Positions 21,308 through 56,244 of a DNA stretch of 64,000 nucleotides are shown here, piece by piece (the stretch's first letter is position 1; each line of letters starts with the position of its first letter). The translations under genes and the position numbers were made by a program. The stretch is from assembly GCA_023129715.1 (NCBI GenBank), contig JAGMBO010000023.1, forward strand, positions 1 through 64,000. Direction: 5' to 3'. The notes beneath the pieces are model-generated. The model made no database searches. It was not told the origin of the DNA and worked only from the letters and a program-made list of their open reading frames with translations. This stretch comes from Candidatus Eiseniibacteriota bacterium. GTDB taxonomy: Bacteria > Eisenbacteria > RBG-16-71-46 > CAIMUX01 > WJJG01.

Positions 21308-22288
21308 ATGGTTCGTGTGAGTGTTGTTATTCCTGTTCACAACCGACGGGACATGGTCGTCGAAGCCCTTGAATCCGTCTTGGCCCAATCCTATCGCCAC
21401 TTCGAGATCGTCGTCTCCGATGACGGCTCCACCGATCGAACCCCGGCGCAAGTCTTCGCTACTCTCGGCGCCGAGCCGCGCGCGATCGAGATTCTCGAAC
21501 AGATGAACCCGGGATCGATCCGTCCCTTCGGTCACGTCTTCAGCCATGGCGAGAACACCATTCAGTATCACTACAGTCACAATCGCGGCCTCAGTGCCGC
21601 CCGCAACCGAGGCGTGCGTCATGCCCGCGGCTACTATGTCGCCTTTCTCGAGGCCGAGGATCTCTGGGATCCGACCCACCTCGAGACCCACATGGCGTTC
21701 CTCGACAGTCATCCCGATGCCTACATCTCGCACGTCGCCGAACGTCCCGCGAAGGGAGGACGCCGCGGGCGCCGGGCGCACAAGACGCCCCCCTCCTCCG
21801 GCTGGATCTTCGAGCAGGCGCTCACTGCGGCGCCGGTAACGATTTCCTCCGCCGTCGTGCACCGCTCCTGTTTCAACGAGTGCGGTTTCTTCGACGAGAA
21901 CCTGCCCGCCTGTGAAGACTACGACCTCTGGCTCCGCTTGGCGGCCCGCCATCCGATCCACTTCCTCGATGGCGGTGTTGCCGTCACCCGCCGGTCGACG
22001 CGCCTCGACAGCCCATCCCGCGGCTGGAGCTGGGAGCGCTTCCGGGTCTATGCGCTCGAGAAGGCCTTCCAGGGCGGGCAGCTCGATGCCGAGCAGCGCC
22101 TGCTGGTCGCCCAGGAGATCGTGCGCAAGTGCGAGCGGTTGGTCGAGGGATTCCGCCGCCAGAAGAGCGACGAGCGTTCCAATTTCTACGAGCGCAAACG
22201 GCGCCGCTTCGCCCAGGAAGTGCGCAAGCTGCGCGCCTCGCAGATCGCACAACGGCCCCGGCCCGATCCAGCCGGCGTGCTCACCTAG
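21308..22288 (+). CDS. GT2 family glycosyltransferase
   Basis: Transfers a sugar from a nucleotide donor in the cytoplasm. The GT-A fold is clear: VSVVIPVHNRRDMVVEALES, FEIVVSDDGSTDRTP, HNRGLSAARNRGVRHARG. The usual DxD metal motif appears as EAED in YYVAFLEAEDLWDP, a shifted or variant site. The ED/W acceptor region FDENLPACEDYDLWLRLAAR is intact. The last 80 residues form a basic helix tail. The start is an ATG behind GGAGGGAGG. The gene is isolated, so its product (envelope or surface glycan) is not set by context. Confidence 0.9.
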   Translation: MVRVSVVIPVHNRRDMVVEALESVLAQSYRHFEIVVSDDGSTDRTPAQVFATLGAEPRAIEILEQMNPGSIRPFGHVFSHGENTIQYHYSHNRGLSAARNRGVRHARGYYVAFLEAEDLWDPTHLETHMAFLDSHPDAYISHVAERPAKGGRRGRRAHKTPPSSGWIFEQALTAAPVTISSAVVHRSCFNECGFFDENLPACEDYDLWLRLAARHPIHFLDGGVAVTRRSTRLDSPSRGWSWERFRVYALEKAFQGGQLDAEQRLLVAQEIVRKCERLVEGFRRQKSDERSNFYERKRRRFAQEVRKLRASQIAQRPRPDPAGVLT

Positions 22289-22318
22289 CCGCCCAGCGAA
22301 GCATCGGGGTTATCGACC

Positions 22319-22485
22319 GGGCCACGGCGCCGCCTGGAGGCTGCGGGACCGGCGCGCGCCGGGGCGAACCACTCTCAGGAGCGTGCGCTTTGGGTCGGCT
22401 TCGCGCGCGGCACTTCCGTGCGCACCGCAGGGGCAAGGGCCGCGCGGCGGACACATCCCTCCGCCCCCAGACGGCTCCGTGGCCC
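22319..22485 (-). repeat. structured intergenic element, copy A
   Basis: A 167-bp unit between converging stops. Its ends are a perfect 9-bp inverted repeat (GGGCCACGG / CCGTGGCCC) that continues inward as 4+4 more pairs with two mismatches. Inside, read on the minus strand, are three blocks shared with the copy at 54558-54728: GGGATGTGTCCGCCGCGCGG, then a 32-base block starting CGCGCGAAGCCGACCCAA (29 of 32 identical), then GGCGCGCGCCGGTCCCGCAG. The spacers (32 and 14 bases) have the same length but different sequence. It could be a mobile palindromic unit or a structured RNA. Confidence 0.75.
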
Positions 22486-22528
22486 GTGCGCCGAATCGTG
22501 GCTCCGGCGCAGACGCTGAGATTGTCCT

Positions 22529-23677
22529 CTATTTCACCGCCGAGATGATCCCCTTGGAGATGATCAGCCGCTGGATTTGGCTCGTTCCCTCGTAGATCTG
22601 GAAGATCTTGGCATCGCGCATCAGCTTCTCGACCGGGTATTCCTTGTTGAACCCGTAGCCACCGAAGATCTGAACGGCATCCGTGCAGACGCGCATTGCC
22701 GTGTCCGCGGCGAAGCACTTCGCACAGGCCGCCTCGTAGGAGTTCTTCTTGCCCCGATCATAGAGGTCGGCGGCGCGCCAGACGAGCAGCCGGGCGGCAT
22801 CGAGATCCTTGGCCATGTCCGCGATCATGAAGGCGATCGCCTGGTGGCGCTGGATGGCAACGCCGAAGGCATGGCGTTCCTTGGCATAGCGAATCGCATG
22901 CTCCATCGCCGCCCGCCCGACCCCGACCGCACCGGCCGCCACCGGCGGACGCGTGTGATCGAAGGCGGCCATCGCCAACAGCCAACCCCTGCCCTCCGGG
23001 CCGATACGATTTTCCTCGGGCACGACGACATCCTCGAAGGTGATCGATCGGGTGTCGGAGGCCCGCTGGCCCATGTTGTTTTCCTTCTTCCCGACCGTCA
23101 CCCCGGGGAGATCGGAAGGCACGATGAAGGCGCTCATCCCGCGAATCCCGGCATCCTTGTTCGTGTAGGCGAGCACGAAGAACCAGTCGGCCACTCCCGC
23201 GCCGCTGATCCACATCTTCTGCCCATTGATCACGTACTCGCCCTTCTTCTTGACCGCGGTTGTCTTGATGCCCTGTACATCACTGCCCGCATCGGGCTCG
23301 GTGACCCCATAGGCGGCGAAGCGGAGTTCCTTGGTCATCGGGGTGATCCACTTCTTCTTCTGCTCTTCGGTGGCACCGGTGAGCAGCGGGGCGGTCGCCA
23401 GGGTATTGACCGTCAGCGCCGTGCTGATCCCGCTGCAAGCGGCCGCCAGCTCCTCGCCGATCAAGCACTCCATCAGCCCCGACATCCCGGGACCGCCATA
23501 GGCCTCCGGAATCCCCGGATCGAGCAGGCCGACCTCGAAGGCCTTCTCGCAGATCCCGCGCGGAAACTCGCCGGTTTCATCGTGGTATGCGGCCAGGGGC
23601 GCGATCTCGTTCCGCGCGAAGTCCCGTGCCAGTTCCTGGACCATGCGTTGCTCTTCGTTGAGTTCGAAACTAACCAT
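22529..23677 (-). CDS. acyl-CoA dehydrogenase (short/medium-chain type)
   Basis: FAD enzyme that introduces the alpha-beta double bond in fatty-acid or amino-acid-derived acyl-CoA. A full 382-residue ACAD: EEQRMVQELARDFARNEIAP, YGVTEPDAGSDVQGIKTTA, the middle beta domain (YVINGQKMWISGAGVADWFF), FGGYGFNKEYPVEKLMRDAK and the catalytic Glu in YEGTSQIQR near residue 366. The position of this Glu fits the butyryl/short-medium-chain group, not the isovaleryl type. Electrons would pass to ETF; no etfAB is in the window, but a membrane Fe-S oxidoreductase that could take ETF electrons lies 8 kb away. Confidence 0.93.
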   Translation of the reverse strand: MVSFELNEEQRMVQELARDFARNEIAPLAAYHDETGEFPRGICEKAFEVGLLDPGIPEAYGGPGMSGLMECLIGEELAAACSGISTALTVNTLATAPLLTGATEEQKKKWITPMTKELRFAAYGVTEPDAGSDVQGIKTTAVKKKGEYVINGQKMWISGAGVADWFFVLAYTNKDAGIRGMSAFIVPSDLPGVTVGKKENNMGQRASDTRSITFEDVVVPEENRIGPEGRGWLLAMAAFDHTRPPVAAGAVGVGRAAMEHAIRYAKERHAFGVAIQRHQAIAFMIADMAKDLDAARLLVWRAADLYDRGKKNSYEAACAKCFAADTAMRVCTDAVQIFGGYGFNKEYPVEKLMRDAKIFQIYEGTSQIQRLIISKGIISAVK

Positions 23678-50202: not shown

Positions 50203-50296
50203 GTGGGTCCGTTCTCCAAATGGCTTTGCACGGAACTCGAGCGTGCAGGGGGCAAGCGCACCCCGCACCGGGCTGTGCCGAATCGTGCGAAGCAAC

Positions 50297-53912: not shown

Positions 53913-53989
53913 GCACAATGGTGCTTGAGGGGCCGGCGCAGGAGCGTCGCCCGCGGCGGAGCCAACGATCTGGAGAGGCATGGTCATCG

Positions 53990-54490
53990 ATGGACATCCT
54001 GACGACCCCTTGGCGCATGGCTTACATCCTCGCGGCGCGGTCACAGTCGGGATGCATTTTCTGCGATCTGCTCGCGCGGGAGGGCAGCGATGCGGAGCGT
54101 TTCATTCTCGAACGCCGGGAGCATGCCTTCCTGGTCCTGAACATCTATCCCTACACACCGGGGCATCTCCTCGCGGTTCCCTATCGCCACACCGCCTTGG
54201 TCAATGAGCTGACGTCCGAAGAACTCGCCGAGCTCTTCGCTCTCTGTCAGACGGCTGAGCGTCTCTTGCGGCGGGCGTACGGCTGCCGGTCGGTGCATAC
54301 GGGCGCCAATCTGGGACGGGCGGCCGGAGCGGGGGTCCCCGATCACCTGCACTTCCACATCGTTGCCTGGCCGGAGGGCGAACTGCGCGAGCGGTGGGAC
54401 GGGGCCGAGTCGTTGCCGGAGTCGCTCGAGCAGACCTATCAGCGCCTGATGGCCGCTCGCGCCCTCCCGCGCGCCGCCGGCGGCGCCTGA
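53990..54490 (+). CDS. HIT-family nucleotide hydrolase/phosphorylase
   Basis: 166 residues. TPWRMAYILAA at the start and CIFCDLLAREG are typical of the diadenosine-tetraphosphate-phosphorylase-like HIT branch. Downstream are NIYPYTPGHLLAVPYRH, the Asn in TGANLGRAAGAGVPDHL and the His triad HLHFHIVAWPEG. It cleaves the alpha-phosphate of dinucleotides or AMP conjugates. The start is the ATG of MDILTTPWRMAY because the conserved region begins there; GAGAGG lies 11 bases upstream. Confidence 0.9.
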   Translation: MDILTTPWRMAYILAARSQSGCIFCDLLAREGSDAERFILERREHAFLVLNIYPYTPGHLLAVPYRHTALVNELTSEELAELFALCQTAERLLRRAYGCRSVHTGANLGRAAGAGVPDHLHFHIVAWPEGELRERWDGAESLPESLEQTYQRLMAARALPRAAGGA

Positions 54491-54557: not shown

Positions 54558-54728
54558 GGGGCCACCGGGCTGGGTGAGCGTGTGCGGGATGTGTCCGCCG
54601 CGCGGAGATGGTTTCTAGGGCGCGCGTGGGGTGGCGTCGCGCGAAGCGGACCCAAGGCGCGCGCTCCTGCATCGGGTATGCCGCGGCGCGCGCCGGTCCC
54701 GCAGACCCTCACCCAGCCCGGTGGCCCC
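54558..54728 (+). repeat. structured intergenic element, copy B
   Basis: 171 bp between converging stops, in opposite orientation to copy A. Its ends are a perfect 20-bp inverted repeat (GGGGCCACCGGGCTGGGTGA / its complement at 54709-54728), extendable by one pair. The three conserved blocks lie at 54586-54605, 54638-54669 and 54684-54704, with spacers of 32 and 14 bases as in copy A. Apart from the GGGCCAC core, the two copies' stem sequences differ while both still pair. Confidence 0.78.
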
Positions 54729-54774: not shown

Positions 54775-56169
54775 TCAGAGCACGAAGCTCTGGCCGAGTT
54801 CGGGCACGATCACCTCGGGTAGGCCTTGTTCCTCGAGCGAGGCGGCAAAGGCGAGCGACTGCTCCTCTTCGCCATGGACGACGAAGACCTTGCGCGGACG
54901 CTTCGAGAGTCCGTCGACCCAAGTCAGAAGCTCCTGCTGATCGGCATGGGCGCTGAAGGCATCGATCGTTGTTACCTCGGCGCGCAGATTGAATCGCTCA
55001 CCGAAGATCGGAACCTCGTCCCACCCCTCCACCAGCTTGCGCCCCAGCGTGTGCTCCGCCTGGAAGCCAATGATCAGAACCTGATTGCGGGGGTCCTCGA
55101 TGTTGTTGCGCAGGTGATGCAGGATGCGGCCCGCCTCGCACATGCCCGAGGCCGAGATGATGATCATCGGCCCTTCTTGGGCATTGAGGCCCTTCGACTC
55201 CTCCACGTCCCGAACGTAGTGGATGCGGCGGAAGCCGAAGGGATCGGTTTGCTCGTCGTGGAGCAACGCCAGCGTCTCCTCATCGAAACACTCCTCGTGC
55301 TCGCGAAAGACCTCGGTCACATTGACCGCCAGCGGACTGTCGACATAGACCGGCATGGCCGGCACGCGCCCGCTCTCGAAGAGCTCCTTGAGCACGGTGA
55401 CGATCTCCTGCGTCCGGCCCACGGCGAAGGCAGGGATGATCACCTTGCCTCGGCGTTCGTGCGCGCGGTTGAGGAGGCGCTCGACCGTCCCGGTGACCTC
55501 CGCGACCACGGCGTGGCGGCGATTCCCGTAGGTGCTCTCGATCATCAGCACGTCGACATCCGCGACCGTCTCCGGGTCGCGGATGATCGGCAGGTGGTCT
55601 CGTCCGAGATCGCCGGTGAAGGCCAGTCGCAGCCGACGGCCGCCTTCCTCGAGATCGAGCACCGTGATCGCCGATCCGAGAATGTGCCCGGCATCGCGAA
55701 AACAGGCGGTCACCCCCGCGGAGACGGCGAAGGGCGTTCCGTAGCGCTGGGACATCAACAACGGCAAGGTGCGCTCGACGTCGGCTTGGGTGTAGAGCGG
55801 CTGCTTCTGCGGCTGCTTCTTGCGCGCCCGCCGCTTGTTGACGAACTCGACGTCCCGCTCCTGGATGTGCGCGCTGTCGTGGAGCATTGGATCGAGCAAC
55901 CCGGCGGTCGCCCGGGTCGCGTGGATCGGGCCCTCGAAGCCGCTCTTGACCAGCGAGGGGAGGTTTCCGCTGTGATCGATGTGGGCGTGCGAGAGAACCA
56001 CCGCGGCCACGTCGGTTGCCTCGAACGGCAGGTGCCGGTTGCGCGCCTCCGCCTCCTCGCGCCGCCCCTGGACCAGCCCGCAGTCGAGAAGGATCTCCCG
56101 GCCCTGGACTTCCAGCAGATGCCGCGACCCGGTCACGGTGCGCGCCGCACCCCAGAACGTGATCCGCAT
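54775..56169 (-). CDS. MBL-fold/beta-CASP RNA-processing nuclease
   Basis: 464 residues in the CPSF73-like family of RNA (or DNA) nucleases. MBL motifs: LLDCGLVQG, VVLSHAHIDHSGNLPSLV (the HxHxDH zinc site), DAGHILGSA, AFTGDLGRDHLPI. The beta-CASP insertion follows (VIIPAFAVGRTQEIVTVLKE, VYVDSPLAVNVTEVFREHEE, IIISASGMCEAGRILHHLRN). The C-terminal RNA-specificity part has IDAFSAHADQQELLTWVDGL and VFVVHGEEEQSLAFAASL. The start is the ATG of MRITFWGAARTVTGS behind GGGAGGGA. Confidence 0.93.
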   Translation of the reverse strand: MRITFWGAARTVTGSRHLLEVQGREILLDCGLVQGRREEAEARNRHLPFEATDVAAVVLSHAHIDHSGNLPSLVKSGFEGPIHATRATAGLLDPMLHDSAHIQERDVEFVNKRRARKKQPQKQPLYTQADVERTLPLLMSQRYGTPFAVSAGVTACFRDAGHILGSAITVLDLEEGGRRLRLAFTGDLGRDHLPIIRDPETVADVDVLMIESTYGNRRHAVVAEVTGTVERLLNRAHERRGKVIIPAFAVGRTQEIVTVLKELFESGRVPAMPVYVDSPLAVNVTEVFREHEECFDEETLALLHDEQTDPFGFRRIHYVRDVEESKGLNAQEGPMIIISASGMCEAGRILHHLRNNIEDPRNQVLIIGFQAEHTLGRKLVEGWDEVPIFGERFNLRAEVTTIDAFSAHADQQELLTWVDGLSKRPRKVFVVHGEEEQSLAFAASLEEQGLPEVIVPELGQSFVL

Positions 56170-56244
56170 GCTGTTTCCCTCCCCCACGCAAATTCCCGCC
56201 GCTGACCCCCTGCGAGACGGCGGCGGCCGCCTCGGGATGGAGGC

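Follow-up and report, generated by a model that had tools for sequence, protein, structure and literature searches.

A dispersed family of candidate 3'-end RNA elements built on a three-way junction in a Candidatus Eiseniibacteriota genome

Introduction

Repeats dispersed through bacterial genomes tend to be regarded as debris of mobile DNA that keeps a fixed consensus. Among the larger enterobacterial repeats, those of the ERIC type are imperfect palindromes of 100–200 bp that lie between genes, are transcribed, occur in a few to tens of copies and keep one consensus sequence. REPs are palindromic, dispersed and found near 3' ends between convergent or co-directional genes, and the G-U pairs in their stems hint at a role as transcribed RNA; both the 3'-end location and the G-U pairs are also found in REPs whose origin is purely mobile, and for certain families (CGTC) no dedicated transposase is known (PMC3733652). 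Bidirectional terminators between convergent genes of Bacillus cereus have a stem that evolves by compensatory change (PMC5381666), and the L17 downstream element is a covarying 3'-UTR RNA structure whose strand was judged from its G-U pairs (PMC2864571).

The element described here was noticed as two copies, A and B, in a 64,000-nucleotide stretch of DNA (the window) from a Candidatus Eiseniibacteriota bacterium. Like the GTAG- or CGTC-tagged, RAYT-mobilised REP/BIME repeats it is dispersed, palindromic and located at 3' ends, with 8 of 11 full copies between convergent genes. REP units, however, measure 20–40 bp with stems of 5–13 bp, whereas the element is about 170 nt long and forms a three-way junction under a covarying outer stem of 20–28 bp; no GTAG or CGTC tag is conserved among the copies read, and whereas REPs are mobilised by RAYT, this genome has no Y1/RAYT gene. 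ERIC-type repeats, compared by description only, hold to one consensus, while the outer stem of the element is different in each copy and yet paired. With intrinsic bidirectional terminators the element shares its position and the compensatory evolution of its stem, but it lacks a U-tract, encloses a large conserved multi-stem loop and has stems far longer than the other hairpins of the genome. It resembles the L17 downstream element as a covarying RNA structure downstream of genes, but it is repeated genome-wide, is not bound to one gene family and has no Rfam match. At somewhat better than even confidence, we take it to be a lineage-specific family of dispersed structured 3'-end RNA elements, REP-like in location but, given the missing RAYT, the wrong size and the lack of a tag, not REPs.

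Copies A and B

The first-pass annotation of the window had reported that two blocks are identical in the two copies, that a second block agrees at 29 of 32 positions and that the spacers have equal lengths (32 and 14 bases), all of which is borne out by sequence comparison: block 1, GGGATGTGTCCGCCGCGCGG, and block 3, GGCGCGCGCCGGTCCCGCAG, are letter-for-letter the same. Copy A lies on the minus strand and copy B on the plus strand, which the coordinates alone do not show (Table 1). Within the window, strong scores with the covariance model R1 were given by these two copies only, and copy B is the longest hairpin of the 64 kb. Its closing stem, described earlier as 20 bp and perfect, is indeed perfect and in fact 21 bp long, and runs on into GGGA/UCCC; that of copy A is imperfect, with one mismatch and two G-U pairs. 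As RNA, copy B forms a single closed structure (−134 kcal/mol, 191 nt, z −6.6); for copy A the values are −115, 186 nt and z −3.8. In neither test did any of 200 shuffles fold as well as the real sequence.

Table 1. Positions of the two window copies, their parts and neighbouring genes, and of the second structured family.
Feature	Position	Strand	Remarks
Copy B, whole element	54558..54728	+	R1 match 144.7 bits, E 5e-24
Copy B, P1 5' arm, 21 bp perfect	54558..54578	+	Pairing kept across copies
Copy B, junction and P2 5' strand, UGC-GGGA	54583..54589	+	Block 1 starts at 54586; GGGA same in 12/12 alignment rows; coupled G-A / Watson-Crick switch adjoins
Copy B, P3 5' strand UGuguCCGCcgCGCG	54590..54604	+	Compensatory U-A/C-G (columns 29-93, 33-89), C-G/G-C (34-88)
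Copy B, P3 3' strand and conserved linker CGCGaaGCGGAcCCA	54640..54654	+	
Copy B, P4 5' strand GGCGCGCGC	54656..54664	+	
Copy B, small hairpin P5 within P4 loop, CCU...GGG	54666..54676	+	CC/GG in every type I row
Copy B, P4 3' strand GCGCGCGCC	54686..54694	+	One compensatory pair in C132a
Copy B, P2 3' strand and junction, UCCC-GCA	54697..54703	+	
Copy B, P1 3' arm	54708..54728	+	
Copy A, whole element	22318..22486	-	R1 match 133.8 bits, E 4e-22
Copy A, stem arms	22318-22341 and 22463-22486	-	
HIT-domain gene (Pfam HIT)	53918..54490	+	Ends 67 bp before copy B
Beta-CASP/RMMBL metallo-hydrolase gene, convergent	54775..56187	-	Ends 46 bp after copy B
Glycosyltransferase gene	21308..22288	+	Ends 30 bp from copy A
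Acyl-CoA dehydrogenase gene, convergent	22529..23677	-	Ends 43 bp from copy A, on the upstream side when the element is read in its own direction
Second family, 5 copies	C126:39409-39532, C99:70867-70973, C105:896-1013, C68:30141-30258, C165:35158-35273		

Copy Number and Anatomy of the Family

The genome assembly is fragmented (4.83 Mb in 186 contigs, 95.9% complete). The family was first gathered from it by searching with block 1 and copy B, and ten copies were used to build R1, whose E-values are rough. The R1 search gave 11 full-length copies, each of about 165–170 nt, including one (C132:51445) that scored 114 bits although it lay outside the training set. When reverse-strand and short forms are counted, the total comes to 18–22 matches, one copy being cut by a contig end. 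With 11 full copies genome-wide, the repeat is far from chance. Seven of them, A and B included, make up type I, and the other four (C112, C127a, C127b and C132b) are of type II, in which P3 differs (TGTAAGCGCCGCGC...GCGCGGCGCGCCC).

All copies share a three-way junction, in which P1 is the long outer stem, GGGA pairs with UCCC in a further stem, and there are two hairpins whose linkers are conserved. P1, 20–28 bp long, closes the element and encloses, in order, a small motif, P2 (GGGA/UCCC), P3, the linker ACCCAAGG and P4 (GCGCGCGC). The loop of P4 holds a small hairpin, CCY...RGG, the third pair of which is U-A, C-G, G-U or U-G in 6/7 type I rows. The motif beside P1 takes the form either of G-A, G-C, A-G or of three canonical pairs, and its positions change in concert: columns 22-144 are paired in 4/4 copies with C at column 24 and in 0/7 copies with A there. 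The letters GGGAUGU, ACCCAAGG and CCGGUCCCGC of the junction are invariant. The P3 and P4 loops vary freely in sequence but hardly in length. Free variation in spacer length had been named beforehand as a sign against a structured RNA; in 7/7 full type I copies block 3 lies 99 or 100 nt from block 1.

Outside this genome, one homologue was found in another family of the same order (G007:C503:11398-11559; 71 bits, E 3e-9), situated between a tRNA gene and a gene that we take, from a reading of its translation, to be leuB. It keeps P1, P2, P3 and P4 with a wholly different P1 sequence. The search of the genome and its relatives that the first-pass annotation had suggested yielded 11 full copies at home and this one homologue elsewhere in the order. 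Four other genera of the same family gave no match, and within the sensitivity of the covariance-model search neither did 45 more genomes of the phylum; a covariance-model search of 358 kb of G006 and plasmid and phage records gave none either. A loose pattern run on 47 genomes of the phylum had matches outside the element's own genome as rare as in the control, and the exact-pattern matches in 85,000 genomes and viral contigs were isolated, lacked blocks 2 and 3 and were taken as chance. Rfam 15 at gathering score returned tRNAs only, in the window and at 15 element loci, and permissive thresholds added noise and tRNA only; the element, earlier described as undescribed-looking, matches no Rfam family and had not been catalogued before.

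Covariation and Drift of the Outer Stem

In the alignment of ten copies, canonical pairs fill 94.3% of the pair cells, and 23 of 46 pairs have changed on both sides. The covariation score, a check proposed with the first description, is 0.374, above both the shuffles (0.112, sd 0.015) and the alignment with the partner strand slid (0.05–0.08). Twelve sequences that include the outside homologue have 26/46 pairs changed on both sides and score 0.362 against 0.110 in shuffles. The shuffle counts are not true probabilities, as all copies but one come from one genome and have a common ancestry. The distant G007 copy shows compensation too, as does P3 in spite of its short helix.

The sequence of the outer stem is different in every copy, with stepwise compensatory changes in recent sub-groups, among them single-pair changes within type II (GGGGGTC/GACCCCC, GGGCGTC/GACGCCC, GGGTGTC/GACACCC). 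The 5' arms of type I P1 have a mean identity of about 53%, where composition predicts 42%; since the P3 loop stands at 47% (and block 1 at 99%), the drift of P1 is close to that of a free loop, and yet it pairs. The closing stems of A and B had been said to differ while both pair, in the manner of compensatory change; they do both pair, but the stems are diverged, not unrelated (about 53% versus 42%). Stem pairing, whose loose variation was another sign to look for, is kept as the sequence changes, and this, together with the fixed spacing, supports the original view of a structured RNA rather than a simple transposon remnant.

The non-Watson-Crick cells of P1 also bear on the strand. Read on the element's plus strand they comprise 17 G-U against 4 A-C. 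This imbalance (two-sided p 0.007) speaks for a folded RNA of that strand; the evidence is moderate and not decisive, because the pairs stand for few events. Strand-biased mutation during transcription could be another source of the bias, in which case the plus strand would still be the transcribed sense.

Template switching or gene conversion between the arms of a palindrome would keep P1 perfect at the DNA level with no selected function. Template switching has been proposed for hairpin stems and yields compensatory changes (PMC8794818), and P1 is long enough for it. We think it rather improbable that such an artefact explains the family, as it predicts no preference for G-U over A-C where 17:4 was observed, and leaves unexplained the compensation in the short interrupted P3 helices, the coupled switch between G-A and Watson-Crick pairs, and the invariance of unpaired junction letters beside diverging loops.

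Genomic Setting

Convergent-gene gaps, which hold 8/11 full copies, make up 64 of 329 background gaps of at least 150 bp (p 2e-4), the background being taken from 1.19 Mb of the same genome with mechanical gene calls. The genes that flank the copies are of unrelated kinds. No U-run follows P1 on either strand in the copies read, a scan giving one internal site only, and a canonical intrinsic terminator was rejected for want of a U-tract after P1. Insertion of the element into a pre-existing terminator hairpin was rejected as well. A survey of long hairpins in 1.19 Mb found 11 with a score of at least 17, all from structured families: nine belong to the element family (full or short) and two to a second one. 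Ordinary genes therefore have no such stems, and P1 belongs to the element itself.

The discrete size and the closed structure would suit a free-standing trans-acting small RNA, driven by a promoter of its own and present in many paralogues. No sigma-70-like promoter was found near copy B, however, and C112 and C132b start a few bases from a stop codon, so near that no promoter fits outside the gene; we hold this origin to be highly improbable.

The second structured family has the core CACGUCGGGnCGGACUCCGUGCGG...CCGCACUCCGnCCGnCCCUCCUAA, unrelated to that of the element, and is closed by long variable paired stems (Table 1). It covaries in turn, with 19/44 pairs changed on both sides and a score of 0.427 against 0.147 in shuffles, and none was seen in other genomes of the phylum. 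On the complementary strand its symmetric internal loops become GGA/GGA, and folding of the alignment is better there (−95 versus −85).

Three other long hairpins (C126:43297, C121:65534 and C99:77297) were folded and set aside; two of them lie inside coding frames. The intergenic one, C126:43297-43459, is closed by a 19-bp stem, has several hairpins in its GC-rich loop together with CCGCCGCGCGG-like letters, and is possibly a degenerate relative.

Relation to Mobile DNA

The first-pass annotation had offered a palindromic mobile unit as the alternative, to be recognised by a match to a known REP/MITE family with a transposase. No Y1/RAYT transposase (PF01797) has a match in the genome, 95.9% complete, while controls such as E. 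coli were positive; with no Rfam match either, no known REP family applies. What speaks for the alternative is a MITE-like family of short palindromes in the same genome, with about 60 BLAST matches, 57–152 bp long when both ends are seen, and imperfect terminal repeats (CTGAATCACTTCGCGCGATTCGG.../...CGAGATTCGTGCAAAGCCATTCAG, the other end also given as CTGAATGGCTTTGCACGAATCTC). It carries a P1 (GGGGCGAGCGGACCGGATGGGATCGGC) related to that of the element, and some of its copies hold halves of the same core, which points to a mobile ancestry.

One MITE-like copy lies at 50216-50296 of the window, and the family often begins at a stop codon. A perfect 30-bp hairpin at C126:50030-50094, with the loop CACAT (ATGTG on the other strand), is a minimal form that joins a MITE-type P1 to GGCGGG-ATGTG-CCCGCC.

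From these relations it could be argued that the element is itself a non-autonomous mobile palindromic repeat, its structure serving transposition, perhaps as single-stranded DNA, and its 3' location reflecting insertion tolerance. We consider this possible but doubtful. Most MITE-like copies lack the core and move without it, and the 11 full elements lack MITE ends, so the conservation of core and P1 is not needed for movement. The genome has no Y1/RAYT transposase, the G-U over A-C bias also counts against this reading, and P1 differs from copy to copy instead of matching a recent master; the P1 arms of full type I copies, averaging 53% identity, are not the constant terminal inverted repeats of a MITE. 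The element probably spread as a mobile repeat or gave rise to one: the full elements may be old members kept for their structure, or a MITE may have captured one, and the sequence is compatible with either.

Discussion

A structured RNA and a repeat of mobile origin are likely both true descriptions of the element. Its function, on the reading as a 3'-end RNA element, is inferred from place and shape only. It would be transcribed, in its plus direction, as the tail of the upstream gene's mRNA, and the long P1 duplex with the compact junction would mark and protect the end of the transcript, blocking both read-through and 3'-5' exonucleases. A protein may recognise the invariant letters of the junction (GGGAUGU, ACCCAAGG and CCGGUCCCGC). 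Dispersal probably happened long ago, the copies moving either as a palindromic mobile repeat or together with one, and the usefully placed ones would have been kept.

A broader proposal, which we put forward tentatively as a serious possibility, is that the element represents a new class of regulatory RNA at 3' ends, in which a three-way junction that binds a protein sits on a freely drifting but always-paired stem. One lineage would use it at the ends of many unrelated genes, together with at least one other family that has the same design and an unrelated core. Where a fixed consensus is the expectation for dispersed repeats, this family shows features commonly held to mark a working RNA, with junction letters conserved and sequence drifting while pairing is kept. 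It offers about a dozen natural replicas in which to ask whether dispersed repeats turn into 3'-end RNA parts, and a natural case for telling selection from template-switch repair of palindromes. If the proposal is true, the lineage would have in these two families a means of its own for ending or protecting transcripts at converging genes.
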